Assembly: GCA_016742275.1 (NCBI GenBank)
Contig: JACVCD010000005.1
Location: 62,001-126,000, forward strand
Direction: 5' to 3'
From: Gemmatimonadaceae bacterium
GTDB taxonomy: Bacteria > Gemmatimonadota > Gemmatimonadetes > Gemmatimonadales > Gemmatimonadaceae
DNA length: 64,000 bases
Below, piece after piece: positions 5,315 to 62,953 of this stretch. Both the position numbers and the translations under genes were made by a program. The first letter of the stretch is position 1, and every line of letters starts with the position of its first letter. A model generated the notes under the pieces. It searched no databases and was not told the DNA's origin. It worked only from the letters and a program-made list of their open reading frames with translations.

Positions 5315-5429
5315 AACTGATTCACACGGATTGCACGGACAACAGCAGAAACTTCAGGATACTGCTCAACCTCTTTGCATGCGGTTCCTGTGGTTTCCGC
5401 CACTTCCGCAGTTTCCGTGTGAATCAGTT
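5315..5429. repeat. Inverted-repeat element copy E1
   Basis: Perfect 16-bp terminal inverted repeats: AACTGATTCACACGGA at 5315-5330 and its exact reverse complement at 5414-5429. The interior holds further ACGG/CCGT-rich words. It lies between two co-directional minus-strand genes, downstream of the one starting at 6016 and upstream of the one starting at 5261. It is one of a family of similar copies in this window. Confidence 0.85.
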
Positions 5430-20525: not shown

Positions 20526-21301
20526 CACCACTCCGCACGGCCCGGGAGCTCGTGGGTCGCGAGCGCAGCTATCATGCAGACCGGAAACTCGGCTGGTCAT
20601 TGGCTTTCGTCGCCGGCGCCATCAATGCCGGTGGATTCCTGGCCGTTGGTCAGTACACGTCCCATGTCACTGGTGCCGTGTCCTCTGCCGCCGATCATCT
20701 CGTGCTTGGCCAACATCCCCTGGCCTTCACCGCGCTCGGTGCCGTCGTGGCGTTTCTGGCGGGAGCCGTCGCATGCGCAGTCATGGTGAACTACGCACGC
20801 CGACGCGACCTCACCAGCGCGTTTGCACTGCCGCTGCTGCTGGAGGCCCTGCTCATTCTGTTGTTTGGCGTGGCGGGTTCAGGTCTCTCGCAGGAAACCG
20901 CGTTGCTGCTTCCGGCCACCGTGCTGCTGCTGTCCTTTCTCATGGGTCTGCAGAACGCGGTGGTGACCAAACTGTCCGAGCGTGTTATTCGCACCACGCA
21001 CATGACCGGCATCGTGACGGATCTGGGAATCGAACTGGGCAAATGGATTTACTGGAATCGTTCGAAGGATCGCGGCGCCGCTGTGCAAGCTGACCCCGAG
21101 CGGCTTCGTGTACTCGGCGGATTGCTGCTCGCATTCTTCGTGGGTGGCATTGTCGGTGCATACGGATTCAAGACGATCGGCTACACCTTCACGATTCCTA
21201 TCGCGATGGTCCTGCTGCTGGTTGGAGGCGTGCCGTTGGTCGACGACATCAGATCGCGGGGAGCGGGCGTTGCCGGTGACAGCAACAGCAACAGCAACTG
21301 A
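20522..21301 (+). CDS. DUF1275 (YoaK-like) integral membrane protein
   Basis: I start at GTG 20522, overlapping the ATPase stop; a longer reading from 20399 is unlikely. The 259-residue product has about six membrane spans and the DUF1275 landmarks: VAGAINAGGFLAVGQYTSHVTG near the N-terminus, LLSFLMGLQNAVV and RTTHMTGIVTDLGIELG in the middle. Function is unknown in the family. The last residues (DSNSNSN) and the stop codon are written by the CAACAG run and the ACTGATT end of inverted-repeat copy E2, so the native C-terminus may have been replaced. Confidence 0.88.
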   Translation: MTPLRTARELVGRERSYHADRKLGWSLAFVAGAINAGGFLAVGQYTSHVTGAVSSAADHLVLGQHPLAFTALGAVVAFLAGAVACAVMVNYARRRDLTSAFALPLLLEALLILLFGVAGSGLSQETALLLPATVLLLSFLMGLQNAVVTKLSERVIRTTHMTGIVTDLGIELGKWIYWNRSKDRGAAVQADPERLRVLGGLLLAFFVGGIVGAYGFKTIGYTFTIPIAMVLLLVGGVPLVDDIRSRGAGVAGDSNSNSN

Positions 21302-21463
21302 TTAACGCGGATGACACGGAAAGAGACGGAAACCACACGGATTAACTGCAGCTACAAAAAAGAAAAAATGAAAACTGACAGACCACACCACCGCTCCCGA
21401 TTCGCCCCGATCCAATCCTGTAGTTTCCGTCTGTTTCCGTGTCATCCGCGTTAATCAGTTGCT
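21293..21463. repeat. Inverted-repeat element copy E2 (41-bp arms)
   Basis: Left arm 21293-21333 and right arm 21423-21463 are reverse complements over 41 bp with a single mismatch. The outer part reads AGCAACTGATTAACGCGGAT. CAACAG-type triplets flank both ends. The interior includes an A-rich stretch and one more partial ACACGGATTAACTG word. It lies exactly between the convergent DUF1275 and glgA genes and includes the stop codon of the former. It could fold as a very stable bidirectional hairpin. Confidence 0.92.
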
Positions 21464-21477
21464 TTTTGCTGTTGCTG

Positions 21478-34300: not shown

Positions 34301-34413
34301 AACTGATCACGCAGAGGGAAAGAGACACGGAGGTCGCAGAGGAGGATCTGAGTGCACGCCATTCGGGTCCTCCTCTGTGTTCTTTGCGTCTCTTTCCCTC
34401 TGCGTGATCAGTT
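34301..34413. repeat. Inverted-repeat element copy E3 (GCAGAGG type)
   Basis: Outer arms 34301-34326 and 34388-34413 are perfect 26-bp reverse complements, starting AACTGATCACGCAGAGGG. A second perfect 10-bp pair, CAGAGGAGGA (34337-34346 and 34368-34377), closes the inner loop. It lies between convergent genes. Its body words (GCAGAGGG, GAGAC) differ from the ACGCGGAT words of E1, E2 and E5, while its ends are the same. Confidence 0.92.
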
Positions 34414-59308: not shown

Positions 59309-60832
59309 ATGACCACCATCACTCAGGCAGACTTCATCCAGTCCATCGCGGATGCTCTGCAGCACATCTCGTACTATCACCCGCTCGACTACATCGACGC
59401 GCTGGCGGATGCCTACGAGAAGGAACAGTCGCCGGCCGCGAAGGATGCGATCGCGCAGATCCTCACGAACTCGCGCATGTGTGCCGAGGGACATCGCCCG
59501 ATCTGCCAGGACACCGGCAGTGTGGTGGTCTTCCTCAAAGTGGGCATGAATGTGCGATGGGACACGACCATGTCCATTCAGGAGATGGTCAACGAGGGCG
59601 TGCGTCGTGCCTATCTGCTGCCTGACAACATTCTGCGCGCGTCCATCGTGGCCGATCCAGCATTCGGCCGCAAGAACACGCGCGACAATACGCCAGCGGT
59701 GGTGCACGTCGAGCTCGTGCCAGGCGACACGGTGGATGTGAAGCTGGGCGCCAAGGGTGGTGGCTCGGAAAACAAGTCCAAGTTCGCGATGCTGAATCCG
59801 AGTGACAGCATTGTGGACTGGGTGCTCAAGACGGTGCCGCTCATGGGCGCCGGCTGGTGCCCGCCGGGCATGCTGGGTATCGGTATCGGCGGCAGCGCTG
59901 AGAAGGCCATGCTCATGGCGAAGGAGTCGCTCATGGAGCACATCGACATGGCACAGCTCAAGGAGCGCGGTCCGCAAAACAAGATAGAAGAACTCCGCAT
60001 CGAACTGCACGACAAGATCAATGCACTCGGCATCGGTGCGCAGGGGCTTGGTGGTCTCTCCACCGTGCTCGACGTGAAGATCTGGGATTTCCCGACACAT
60101 GCGGCGTCCAAGCCAATCGCGATGATCCCGAACTGCGCGGCCACACGCCATGCGCATTTCGTGCTCGACGGCAGCGGTGTGGCGGAGTTGCCGGTGCCCA
60201 AGCTCTCCGACTGGCCCGATGTCACGTGGCGTCCTGATGTGAACGCCAAGCGTGTCGATCTCGATACGTTGACGCCGGAAGTGGTAGCGACGTGGAAGGC
60301 CGGCGATCGTCTGTTGCTCAATGGCCGCATGCTTACGGGTCGCGACGCGGCACACAAGCGTATCGCCGACCTCTATGCGAGTGGTGAAGGCTTGCCGGCC
60401 GGTGTGGACTTCACGAATCGTGTGATCTACTACGTGGGTCCGGTCGATCCGGTGCGTGATGAGGCGGTGGGTCCGGCTGGCCCGACGACTGCCACACGCA
60501 TGGACAAGTTCACCGAGATGATGCTGGCCAAGACGGGTCTCATCGCGATGATCGGCAAGGCCGAGCGCGGGACGGTTGGTCTTGAGGCCATTCGTAAGCA
60601 CAAGGCCGCGTATCTGATGGCGGTTGGTGGTGCGGCGTATCTCGTGTCGAAGGCCATTCGTGCGTCACGTGTCGTGGCCTTCGAAGACCTCGGCATGGAA
60701 GCGATCTACGAGTTTACCGTGGAAGACATGCCGGTGACTGTTGCCGTTGACGCGGCCGGCGACAATGTGCACGAAACCGGACCGTCGGAGTGGCAGGACA
60801 AGATCCGAAAGGGGTTGCCGGTTCTGTCGTGA
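59309..60832 (+). CDS. Fumarate hydratase, class I (iron-sulfur)
   Basis: A 507-residue single-chain class I fumarase with both alpha- and beta-type domains (FumA/FumB-like). The three [4Fe-4S] cysteines are in RPICQDTGS, GAGWCPPGM and IPNCAATRH. The C-terminal domain has GPTTATRMDKFTEMML and the MAVGGAAYLVSKAIR block. It hydrates fumarate to malate in the TCA cycle; oxygen-sensitive. A CAGGG ribosome-binding site lies just ahead of the ATG. It stands alone and is divergent from the TPR gene. It is followed by repeat copy E4. Confidence 0.95.
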   Translation: MTTITQADFIQSIADALQHISYYHPLDYIDALADAYEKEQSPAAKDAIAQILTNSRMCAEGHRPICQDTGSVVVFLKVGMNVRWDTTMSIQEMVNEGVRRAYLLPDNILRASIVADPAFGRKNTRDNTPAVVHVELVPGDTVDVKLGAKGGGSENKSKFAMLNPSDSIVDWVLKTVPLMGAGWCPPGMLGIGIGGSAEKAMLMAKESLMEHIDMAQLKERGPQNKIEELRIELHDKINALGIGAQGLGGLSTVLDVKIWDFPTHAASKPIAMIPNCAATRHAHFVLDGSGVAELPVPKLSDWPDVTWRPDVNAKRVDLDTLTPEVVATWKAGDRLLLNGRMLTGRDAAHKRIADLYASGEGLPAGVDFTNRVIYYVGPVDPVRDEAVGPAGPTTATRMDKFTEMMLAKTGLIAMIGKAERGTVGLEAIRKHKAAYLMAVGGAAYLVSKAIRASRVVAFEDLGMEAIYEFTVEDMPVTVAVDAAGDNVHETGPSEWQDKIRKGLPVLS

Positions 60833-60844
60833 TGACCTGATACA

Positions 60845-60919
60845 GATTCACGCGGATGAACACGGAAACAAGGGACACCATCAGGAATGAATGGTGTCCC
60901 TTGTTGTTTCAATGTGAAT
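60845..60919. repeat. Inverted-repeat element copy E4 with strong inner hairpin
   Basis: The left arm (60845-60869, beginning GATTCACGCGGATGAACACG) has the family sequence. The inner stem ACAAGGGACACCAT (60868-60881) pairs perfectly with 60891-60904. The right end is a shortened arm, GTTTCAATGTGAAT (60906-60919). It lies between convergent fumarase and GxxExxY genes and likely works as a bidirectional terminator. Confidence 0.85.
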
Positions 60920-60930
60920 ATTGGCCCTGT

Positions 60931-61341
60931 TCATTTGGGCTCTTCATGCAGATCGCCCGATGGACTCCAGACCAAGCGCTTTCGCTGGGGATTCTCGCCG
61001 AAGTTTAGAAGAACACCGACTTCCAGAGATGAAGCGCGAAGATAATTGAGGAGTTGTGCGCTATGCGCCTTCGAGAGCTGGTCCGCCACCTTCAGCTCGA
61101 CTAGTACGGCCCGCTCAACAAGCAGATCACAGCGGAAATTTCCAACCAACTTCCCATCGTAGTAGACGGGTAAGTTCGCCTCGCGTTCGACAGACAGGCC
61201 ACGTTTTCCCAGTGCAATGAGCATGGCGCTCTGATACACGGATTCCACAAAACCCCATCCGAGTGCGTTATAGACATCCAGAAACGCCCCGATGATTTGG
61301 TAGGTGATGCGTTCGTGGCGAAGGTGCACGCGCTGTCCCAT
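60931..61341 (-). CDS. GxxExxY family protein (PD-(D/E)XK-like)
   Basis: A 136-residue protein from ATG 61341 (GTG 61359 is alternative). The defining motif is GFVESVY (residues 30-36). A PD-(D/E)XK-like core is visible: Asp72 in RCDLLVE, and Glu82-x-Lys84 in VLVELKV. The end (YLRASSLEVGVLLNFGE) is the usual family block. Function is unknown; the nuclease-fold resemblance suggests nucleic-acid cleavage or binding. It is bracketed by a left-arm repeat copy (E4) at its 3' side and a right-arm copy (E7) at its 5' side. Confidence 0.9.
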   Translation of the reverse strand: MGQRVHLRHERITYQIIGAFLDVYNALGWGFVESVYQSAMLIALGKRGLSVEREANLPVYYDGKLVGNFRCDLLVERAVLVELKVADQLSKAHSAQLLNYLRASSLEVGVLLNFGENPQRKRLVWSPSGDLHEEPK

Positions 61342-61391
61342 AAAGCACACAATGCCCACGCAACAGCCGACGCGTCCACACCATTTCTACG

Positions 61392-61440
61392 CCACTTCCT
61401 GTCGTTTCCTTCGTGTCCGCCCTTTCCGCGATGGTCGGTT
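61392..61440. repeat. Solo right arm of inverted-repeat family, copy E7
   Basis: The sequence has TTTCC/CCGCG words and ends CCGCGATGGTCGGTT, similar to the reverse complement of the E5 left arm (CCGCGATGATCAGTT). There is no left arm directly beside it; the nearest left arm is E4, on the far side of the GxxExxY gene. Confidence 0.6.
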
Positions 61441-61495
61441 ACATTTCGAAAGCCAACAGCATCAGTCGTAGTATTCCCACCTGCCCGAGCCTGCC

Positions 61496-62803
61496 TTGTC
61501 ACTTCACCGTCGCCTGCTGCTTAGTCTTTCGGCCAGCCTGACCTTGGCTGCCACGGCCGCCGCTCAACCCGCCACGCAGTATCCCACCAGTTGGGATCCC
61601 TCGCTCGCCCAGCGCGCCGATATCAAGGCCGCCATGGCACGCATCGAGCAGAACTTTCCGCAGCAGGTCGCGGAGTGGATCACGCTCACCGAGATGCCCG
61701 CCAAGTCCGGCAAGGAGACTATCCGCGCAGCGCACGTGAAGGCAGCGTTTGAGAAGGAGGGTCTCCGCACCTCCGTCGACTCGATCGGCAACGTGATCGG
61801 CGTGCGCAAGGGCACCGGTGGCGGACCGACCATCGCGATCATGGCACACATGGACGTGGTGTTCGAGAACAACACGCCCAAGAAAGTGCGTCGAAGCGGT
61901 GACACGTTGTTTGCACCCGGTGTCGGCGACAACACGGCATCGGTAGCCAACATGCTGGCCACCATTCGCACCATGAATGCCACGAAGTTCACCCACAAGG
62001 GCGACATCATCTTCATCGGCACGGTGCAGGAAGAAGTCGGCCTCAAGGGCGCTGAATACTGGCTCGCACACAATCCACGTCCTGACCTGCTCATCGCGCC
62101 CGATGGCGCGTTCGGCAGTGTAGCCTACGGTGCACTTGGCATCTACTGGACCAAGTACGTATTCACGAGCCCGGGCGCGCACACGCTCGCCTCACGCGGC
62201 CGTCCGACACCGGTCCGTGCAGTCGCAGAGGCGATCGAGCGTTTGTATCAGCTCGAATTCGGTCCGCTGCCCAATGGTGCTGTCATGAACATCGGACAGA
62301 TCCACGGTGGTGAGATCTTCAACTCGGTGCCGCAGGAGCTCTACTTCACAGTCGATCTTCGCAGCCCGGATCCGGTGCTGCTCGACTCACTCGATCGCAC
62401 CATCACGCGCGTTGTGAAGGAAGTGGCCGACAAGCAGAAGGTCGGACTGCGTGTAGAGATCGATCAGAAGAATCAGGCCGGTGGCACGGAGAAGCAGCTC
62501 GAGGGCGCGCGTGCACATCCGCTCGTGCAGACGGCAGTGGACATCAATCGTTTCCTCGGCATCAGCGCCGGCATGCCCGGCGCGCAGGAAGCCGTACCGA
62601 CGGGCGCGACCGACGCAAACCCGGGCGTCGTGCGCAAGATCCCCAGCATCGCGATCGGTGGTTCACGGGCGAGCGGTGCGCATCAGCTGACCGAGTACGC
62701 GCTTGCTTCCACTGCGCTGCCGTCGACCAAGCTGCTGTATCTGCTCACGGCGACGTTCGCAGATGGCATCAAGACCGTGCCGCCAGCGAAGATCGTTCCC
62801 TGA
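61496..62803 (+). CDS. Exported M20 family metallopeptidase
   Basis: A 435-residue zinc peptidase starting at TTG 61496 with a signal peptide (LLLSLSASLTLAATAAAQ). Metal ligands: His/Asp in AHMDVVF, Asp in PGVGDNTASV, Glu-Glu in GTVQEEVGLKG, Asp in APDGAFG. A final metal His is expected near GASGAHQLTE-like text, here SGAHQLTEYA. It is related to tripeptidase T and carboxypeptidase-like M20 proteins. It likely trims peptides in the periplasm, together with the Xaa-Pro peptidase at 33 kb. Confidence 0.9.
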   Translation: MSLHRRLLLSLSASLTLAATAAAQPATQYPTSWDPSLAQRADIKAAMARIEQNFPQQVAEWITLTEMPAKSGKETIRAAHVKAAFEKEGLRTSVDSIGNVIGVRKGTGGGPTIAIMAHMDVVFENNTPKKVRRSGDTLFAPGVGDNTASVANMLATIRTMNATKFTHKGDIIFIGTVQEEVGLKGAEYWLAHNPRPDLLIAPDGAFGSVAYGALGIYWTKYVFTSPGAHTLASRGRPTPVRAVAEAIERLYQLEFGPLPNGAVMNIGQIHGGEIFNSVPQELYFTVDLRSPDPVLLDSLDRTITRVVKEVADKQKVGLRVEIDQKNQAGGTEKQLEGARAHPLVQTAVDINRFLGISAGMPGAQEAVPTGATDANPGVVRKIPSIAIGGSRASGAHQLTEYALASTALPSTKLLYLLTATFADGIKTVPPAKIVP

Positions 62804-62820
62804 TCAACAGCACATATAGA

Positions 62821-62953
62821 AACAGCAACTGATCATCGCGGATTTCGCGGACAAGGGCGGAAACTACACGGATACAACAAAAGCAGTTGCCTTTATCCGT
62901 GTAGTTTCCGTTTCAATCCGCGTTATCCGTGTGAATCAGTTGCTGTTTTTTTT
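62821..62953. repeat. Inverted-repeat element copy E5 with T8 tract
   Basis: Outer arms AACAGCAACTGAT (62821-62833) and its complement (62935-62947) match perfectly over 13 bp. The inner arms CGGAAACTACACGGAT (62858-62873) and 62895-62910 match over 16 bp, with a diverged middle. Eight T residues (62946-62953) follow on the plus strand, so it can act as a rho-independent terminator for the M20 gene. It lies between convergent genes. Confidence 0.9.

Follow-up and report, generated by a model that had tools for sequence, protein, structure and literature searches.

GxxExxY nuclease-like proteins as proposed cognate enzymes of a widespread family of palindromic DNA elements

GxxExxY proteins are proposed here to be the cognate enzymes of palindromic elements that together form a widespread family, with each gene residing inside its own full-length copy of the element. 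A probability of roughly 0.7 is assigned to this reading; no binding, cleavage or transposition has been observed, and no screen was made for a RAYT or IS transposase acting in trans. Full-length copies consist of an arm, the GxxExxY gene and an inverted arm, and span about 430–610 bp. Gene-less copies, of which there are tens per genome, hold two arms around a short variable interior, and each of them can fold into a long hairpin or a cruciform. The arms are built from two to four degenerate units at a spacing of 8–11 nt and have a lineage-specific outer end. The unit is C[AG]CN[AG]AG in most phyla, and CRCGGAT/CRCGGAA or CGCAGAG in the genus that provided the window (the whole stretch of 64,000 nucleotides analysed). 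No published description of the pairing between GxxExxY genes and these arms was found in the open papers searched.

A sequence-only reading of the window had placed opposite arms of a dispersed repeat on the two sides of its GxxExxY gene, with one copy described as degenerate (Table 1). The observation holds. Scored against other members of the family, the left arm reaches 26 and the right arm 19, above the maximum of 16 obtained from 3000 random 70-bp windows, and the right arm is decayed: in the orthologous locus of genome G022 (L005), which has the same left arm, a much better preserved right arm (GTAACTGATTACCACGGATTTCGCGGACAACCCACGGAAACAGCAGG) is found at the equivalent place. The near-perfect stem that adjoins the left arm is also kept in L005, and its predicted DNA fold has an energy of -18.1 kcal/mol (z -5.5). 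Between the arms, neither the window locus nor locus L042 of Sphingomonas phyllosphaerae FA2 contains a gene-like ORF except GxxExxY, or a known transposase, and no Rfam family matches the window at its gathering score. Gene-less elements of two dialects occur elsewhere in the window. Those at 5315-5429, 34301-34413 and 62820-62948, folded whole, give long hairpins (z -4.9 to -11.7), and the dialect of the one at 34301-34413 (CACGCAGAG) is that found beside the second GxxExxY gene of the same genome (L002).

Table 1. Features of the GxxExxY locus and of the gene-less elements, in window positions
Feature	Position	Strand	Remarks
Gene-less element, dialect 1 (AACTGATTCACACGGATTGCACGG ..)	5315..5429		fold z -4.9
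Gene-less element, dialect 1	21283..21472		arms 21290-21337 and 21419-21466, 94% complementary
Gene-less element, dialect 2 (AACTGATCACGCAGAGGGAAAGAG..)	34301..34413		fold z -9.9
Fumarate hydratase gene (fumA), flanking	59309..60832	+	named by reading the sequence, no family search
Left arm, dialect 1 (..GATTCACGCGGATGAACACGGAAAC, that string from 60845)	60836..60869	+	inward, behind the GxxExxY stop codon
Hairpin stem GAAACAAGGGACACCATC..GATGGTGTCCCTTGTTGTTTC	60867..60905		adjoins the left arm
GxxExxY gene (TIGR04256, PF13366 PDDEXK_3)	60931..61341	minus	136 aa
Right arm, inverted and decayed (reverse complement GTAACCGACCATCGCGGAAAGGGCGGACACGAAGGAAACGACAGG)	61392..61443	minus	upstream of GxxExxY
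M20-type peptidase gene, flanking	61496..62803	+	named by reading the sequence, no family search
Gene-less element, dialect 1	62820..62948		fold z -11.7

The start of the GxxExxY gene was set at the ATG at 61341 by comparison with the G022 ortholog. Its product matches the profiles TIGR04256 (134.4 bits, cut-off 35, E = 2e-39) and PF13366 (138.7 bits, cut-off 22, E = 1.5e-40), and the GFVESVY motif and D...ExK core noted in the first reading are present. PDDEXK_3 is the sole significant Pfam domain, with no Transposase_17 (HUH Y1) domain. TIGR04256 has no known role, and only passing mentions of it occur in the open full-text literature. The catalytic-type residues of the window protein are E33, D72, E82-x-K84 and Q96xxxY100. 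All of 77 GxxExxY sequences from many phyla have E38, D77, E87 and K89 (numbered after the first row of alignment A3), and the QxxxY helix is nearly invariant. The AlphaFold model of the protein (pLDDT 90) adopts a PD-(D/E)XK fold, whose closest structure is the Cas4 protein SSO0001 (4ic1; Foldseek E 8.6e-5; superposition Z 9.1, rmsd 5.1 over 100 residues), and the archaeal Hjc resolvase is also near it in Foldseek. This modelled likeness to Cas4 and Hjc is one of fold only, and function is not shown by fold.

The association between GxxExxY genes and arms was established on 80 fetched loci from about a dozen phyla, as judged by record title, with 594 ORFs on the same contigs as controls. In a motif-free comparison, the 300 bp before each gene were aligned to the reverse-complemented 300 bp that follow it, and a score of at least 22 was reached by 25 of 74 GxxExxY genes and by 7 of the 594 control ORFs (p = 4e-20). 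The aligned segments consist of consecutive units such as CACAGAG, CGCAAAG, CACGGAG and CGCGGAG, spaced at 8–11 nt, which start after a TTCAC-like outer end and often abut the start codon and the stop. When arms were defined by a two-unit motif (C[AG]CN[AG]AG twice, with units every 8–11 nt), 77/80 GxxExxY genes had one within 300 bp, compared to 42/594 controls, and inward arms on both sides were present in 40/80 versus 1/594. Thus, the enrichment beside GxxExxY genes whose absence would have told against the sequence-only reading is found. It persists without Sphingomonadales (inward arms on both sides in 35/64 versus 1/594, p = 3e-39), and arm density drops from about 10 per kb adjacent to the genes to 0.1 per kb beyond 2 kb.

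As the motif had been derived from part of the 80 loci, it was tested on a held-out set from Sphingomonadaceae, a single family that is also represented in the discovery set. There, the motif occurred within 300 bp at all 28 analysable loci, and at none of them between 300 and 1500 bp. ParE genes, used as a matched small accessory gene, were bracketed in 0/25 cases by both measures. An explanation by chance, or by an insertion hot spot where repeats pile up in the intergenic regions holding such genes, has only the general intergenic bias of repeats to draw on. It is already contradicted by the controls, namely odds ratios between 43 and 700 relative to control ORFs, the held-out validation, the ParE result and the dialect matching described below, and can practically be discarded. 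The reading frame of some loci, L042 (10360-10420) among them, can extend through the downstream arm, which produces C-terminal tails such as SPRLRVN. The upstream arm, at L042 and elsewhere, contains GGAG, a ribosome-binding-like sequence.

Within the genus of the window, 24 of 25 genomes carry between one and eight GxxExxY genes, compared to 1/16 genomes in the sister genera. Strong inverted arms on both sides are seen in only 3/26 of the genus loci, and most loci have a complete hairpin that is confined to the downstream side. The inverted score is weak here because the arms have decayed or are represented by a one-sided hairpin, and a hairpin test (score of at least 19, within 350 nt downstream) was therefore used instead. 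Long hairpins followed 17/26 GxxExxY genes but only 5/43 control ORFs of the window (p = 7e-6), and the downstream-hairpin site recurs at L002, L006, L007, L019, L028 and L031. The position of most genus hairpins behind the GxxExxY stop codon, together with the GGAG lying innermost in the upstream arm, which can act as a Shine-Dalgarno sequence, might point to ordinary regulation, in which the hairpins would terminate transcription and the upstream arm, rich in purines, would be a ribosome-binding region. However, both arms are inverted copies in a dialect that recurs across the genome in gene-less form, control ORFs on the same contigs lack such arms, and all five hairpins beside control ORFs adjoin gene-less elements of the family, which makes a purely regulatory origin very improbable.

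Several loci of the genus show further elaborations. The third GxxExxY gene of the window's genome (L003) has near-perfect arms (1312-1440 and 1900-2015) with an IVP-like vocabulary (GAGGAACAGATGGCGTGAGGATKGGAGGATCTGAGGATATGAG) and an additional variable inner stem on each side. The arms at L017 (G012:C69) are expanded to inverted arrays of a ~60-bp unit (AACGGCTCACACGGAGGGCGCCGAGGACGGTGAGGGCGCGGAGG), which extend over ~320 bp per side. The hairpin 3' of the gene at L020 is tandemly doubled and is single in the near-identical locus L021, and L022 holds two tandem hairpins.

Dialects are unevenly distributed among these genomes. Dialect 1 (ACTGATNNNCRCGGAT) is present in 20 copies in G000, 14 in G022, 12 in G001 and 7 in G002, and in at most 2 in any other genome. 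Each of these four genomes has a GxxExxY gene beside a dialect 1 arm, the one in G000 deviating slightly from the exact pattern. Dialect 2 is found in 36 copies in G022, 27 in G001, and 8 each in G000 and G012, with at most 2 elsewhere, and is absent from all the sister-genus genomes.

A match between a gene and its own dialect is seen in the complete genome G192, which encodes eight GxxExxY paralogs, mostly 41-63% identical. Their upstream and downstream arms score 22.3 against each other within the same locus versus 11.6 for other pairs (permutation p < 5e-5), L245, without a clear downstream arm, being the exception. The only paralog pair with 83% identity has a common dialect despite different sites. 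Gene-less arms located more than 1 kb away likewise resemble the gene arms of their own contig (mean rank 0.77, p = 2e-6, 43 loci). Genome G139 holds one gene-bearing and five gene-less elements (~145 bp) with identical arms, the end GGCGCT and variable interiors. No target-site duplication was seen by eye at these six elements, without systematic scoring.

At the genome level, at least two exact three-unit arms are present in 29/41 carriers of the gene among 200 Sphingomonadaceae, compared to 15/159 non-carriers (OR 23, p = 8e-15), and most arms (134) belong to the genome with 8 GxxExxY genes. This Fisher p overstates independence because carriers and arms share phylogeny, a problem that does not affect the dialect tests made within one genome. 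Counts with an exact pattern also underestimate divergent dialects; fewer than two such arms were counted in 12/41 carriers. Had repeat-rich genomes regularly been without the gene, the first reading would have been refuted. Such genomes do exist (G157, G154, G085 and G239 have 13-24 exact arms and no GxxExxY match), but they make up only a minority, as the above fractions indicate. At L256 (G270:C1:1090714-1090779), pairs of arms point outward with ~20 bp between them, as though one element bordered another, an arrangement that resembles BIME clusters.

The existence of these arm-rich genomes, the excess of gene-less over gene-bearing copies, and the similar bracketing of an unrelated family, IVP (PF05635), would all be compatible with GxxExxY being a passenger, that is, cargo of an element moved by another enzyme in trans, and helping the element or the host in some other way. 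However, arms bracket this one gene across about a dozen phyla, and the eight paralogs of one complete genome mostly match their own dialects, so that an enzyme and its site are expected rather than cargo. ParE genes, moreover, are never bracketed. The passenger explanation is consequently considered unlikely.

Comparison of allelic sites shows that gene-bearing and gene-less elements both have empty counterparts. The 3' end of fumA is a recurrent site for the element: a hairpin plus the GxxExxY gene follows fumA in seven genomes, G012 and G002 carry only a gene-less hairpin there, and G003, G004 and G015 have neither the gene nor dialect arms at the junction between fumA and the M20 gene, which adjoins fumA where the element is absent. 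In Sphingomonas phyllosphaerae FA2 (L042), the unit (TTCACGCGGAGGCGCGGAGACGCGGAG, gene, CTCCGCGTCTCCGCGCCTCCGCGTGAA) is located between fabD and fabG, which adjoin each other directly in several relatives. The arm-rich non-carrier G239 has a solo right arm at this position, where its relatives carry the gene, and the arm looks like a relic. G001 and G022 have no copy of the gene-less element at 21283-21472, and in both genomes the two flanks of the site can be aligned, but they are too diverged at the empty sites to give an exact insertion point. Sites without the gene, which the sequence-only reading had proposed to compare with occupied ones, therefore exist, and they can lack the arms as well. 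That reading had suggested a gene located within an extended form of the element, or a gene product that acts on the hairpins. This interpretation is supported, while action of the protein on the arms is inferred and has not been shown.

The gene is chiefly chromosomal. GxxExxY was found in 8 of 72,556 plasmids, none of them typed as mobilizable, and tblastn with one query gave no match among 50,697 phage records. One record, NZ_OY725952.1 (Bacteroides finegoldii 'plasmid 50'), has GxxExxY beside radA and an asparaginase gene and looks like chromosomal DNA, and the matches of a within-species search for empty sites on plasmids were chromosome-like records. This chromosomal distribution, the Hjc/Cas4-like fold, and stable positions such as fabD–fabG and the recurrent downstream-hairpin site mentioned above would fit a domesticated guard, a nuclease that processes or removes long palindromes like SbcCD or a resolvase, or that acts in defence, with the arms as targets or regulatory sites and without any mobility. 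Nevertheless, arms are commoner, not rarer, where GxxExxY is present, and gene and arms are gained and lost as one unit. In addition, no PADLOC defence family is matched by GxxExxY, with only weak Cas4/DRT matches (best E 6e-4, Cas4). A guard without mobility is thus held to be decidedly unlikely.

The inference that the arms are moved or processed by the nuclease rests on the matching dialects, on the co-occurrence of gene and arms among genomes, and on the conserved nuclease residues. According to the proposed mechanism, the nuclease would bind own-dialect units and make a metal-dependent cut at or beside the folded or phased arms, which might be presented as a cruciform or as a single-stranded hairpin at a replication fork. 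Host replication and repair would then copy the element elsewhere. The inferred binding, cutting and copying would also explain why arms diverge jointly with their enzyme. In this reading, the enzyme, which is chromosomal, mostly stays in place like a domesticated RAYT, while the gene-less palindromes spread.

These data provide the GxxExxY family, whose role is unknown, with a partner in the form of a dialect-specific palindromic repeat, which makes the family directly testable. They also account for many hairpin repeats, so far without a name, in numerous phyla, and the paired dialects form a natural record of protein–DNA co-evolution from which a recognition code could be read. In its broadest form, the proposal is that a stand-alone GxxExxY nuclease mobilises palindromes of regularly spaced micro-repeats in about a dozen phyla as a new class of mobile DNA, with a private dialect for each enzyme, and that a sister class behaves likewise with the four-helix-bundle IVP protein, a generalisation for which the odds are judged to be about even.

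The proposed sister class rests on a side observation. Genes for 23S_rRNA_IVP (PF05635; L258-L287 from Bacteroidota, L054 7937-8357 and L094 5994-6369) likewise lie between inverted arms made of micro-repeats. Their inverted-arm score is at least 22 in 10/29 and at least 18 in 16/29, compared to 0/25 for ParE. Their arm words differ (AGGCTAAAGGCTAAAGGC, GGTACTAAGTACTAAGTAC, ATGAGACATGAGATATGAG), and the GxxExxY unit is never present there. The intervening sequences of 23S rRNA that encode IVP/S23, such as that of Coxiella, which has 428 nt and is considered a selfish element (PMC4990558), resemble the GxxExxY elements in being units of ~430 nt with inverted ends and one small ORF. In contrast, the GxxExxY elements encode a different protein, use different repeat words and are located outside rRNA.

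Among the nucleases, Cas4/RecB-like proteins and Hjc share the fold, the ExK core and the QxxxY motif with GxxExxY. GxxExxY differs, however, in being a stand-alone protein of ~130 aa without a conserved cysteine cluster in its alignment, and no CRISPR genes adjoin the window locus. Insertion sequences and their MITEs likewise combine a full copy holding a gene with gene-less derivatives that have common ends, whereas the GxxExxY unit has no DDE or serine/tyrosine transposase, its arms are degenerate, and it is almost absent from plasmids and phages.

The closest parallel is the REP/RAYT system, in which the enzyme gene lies between inverted palindromic repeats and many gene-less paired copies occur per genome, the RAYT (TnpA-REP, an HUH Y1 transposase) being low-copy, chromosomal and not found on plasmids (PMC2817692, PMC8049555). 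GxxExxY genes are similarly low-copy and chromosomal and are flanked by two inverted copies of a repeat that also occurs in many gene-less copies per genome, and clusters of adjacent palindromes are found in both systems. REP elements have no obvious target-site duplication, and none was seen by eye at the six G139 elements. However, GxxExxY is an unrelated PD-(D/E)XK nuclease, and its arms are tandem degenerate units of 8–11 nt in many dialects rather than a palindrome of 20–40 nt headed by GTAG or CGTC. Neither head is present in the GxxExxY elements inspected, whose ends read AACTGAT.., GGCGCTCAC.. and TTCACG... Since the sequence-level features of REP/RAYT are met and the HUH enzyme and the GTAG/CGTC head are missing, the GxxExxY pair is inferred by analogy to work like REP/RAYT without being a member of it. 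This type of partnership between an enzyme and a repeat would thereby gain a second chemistry that is unrelated to the first.
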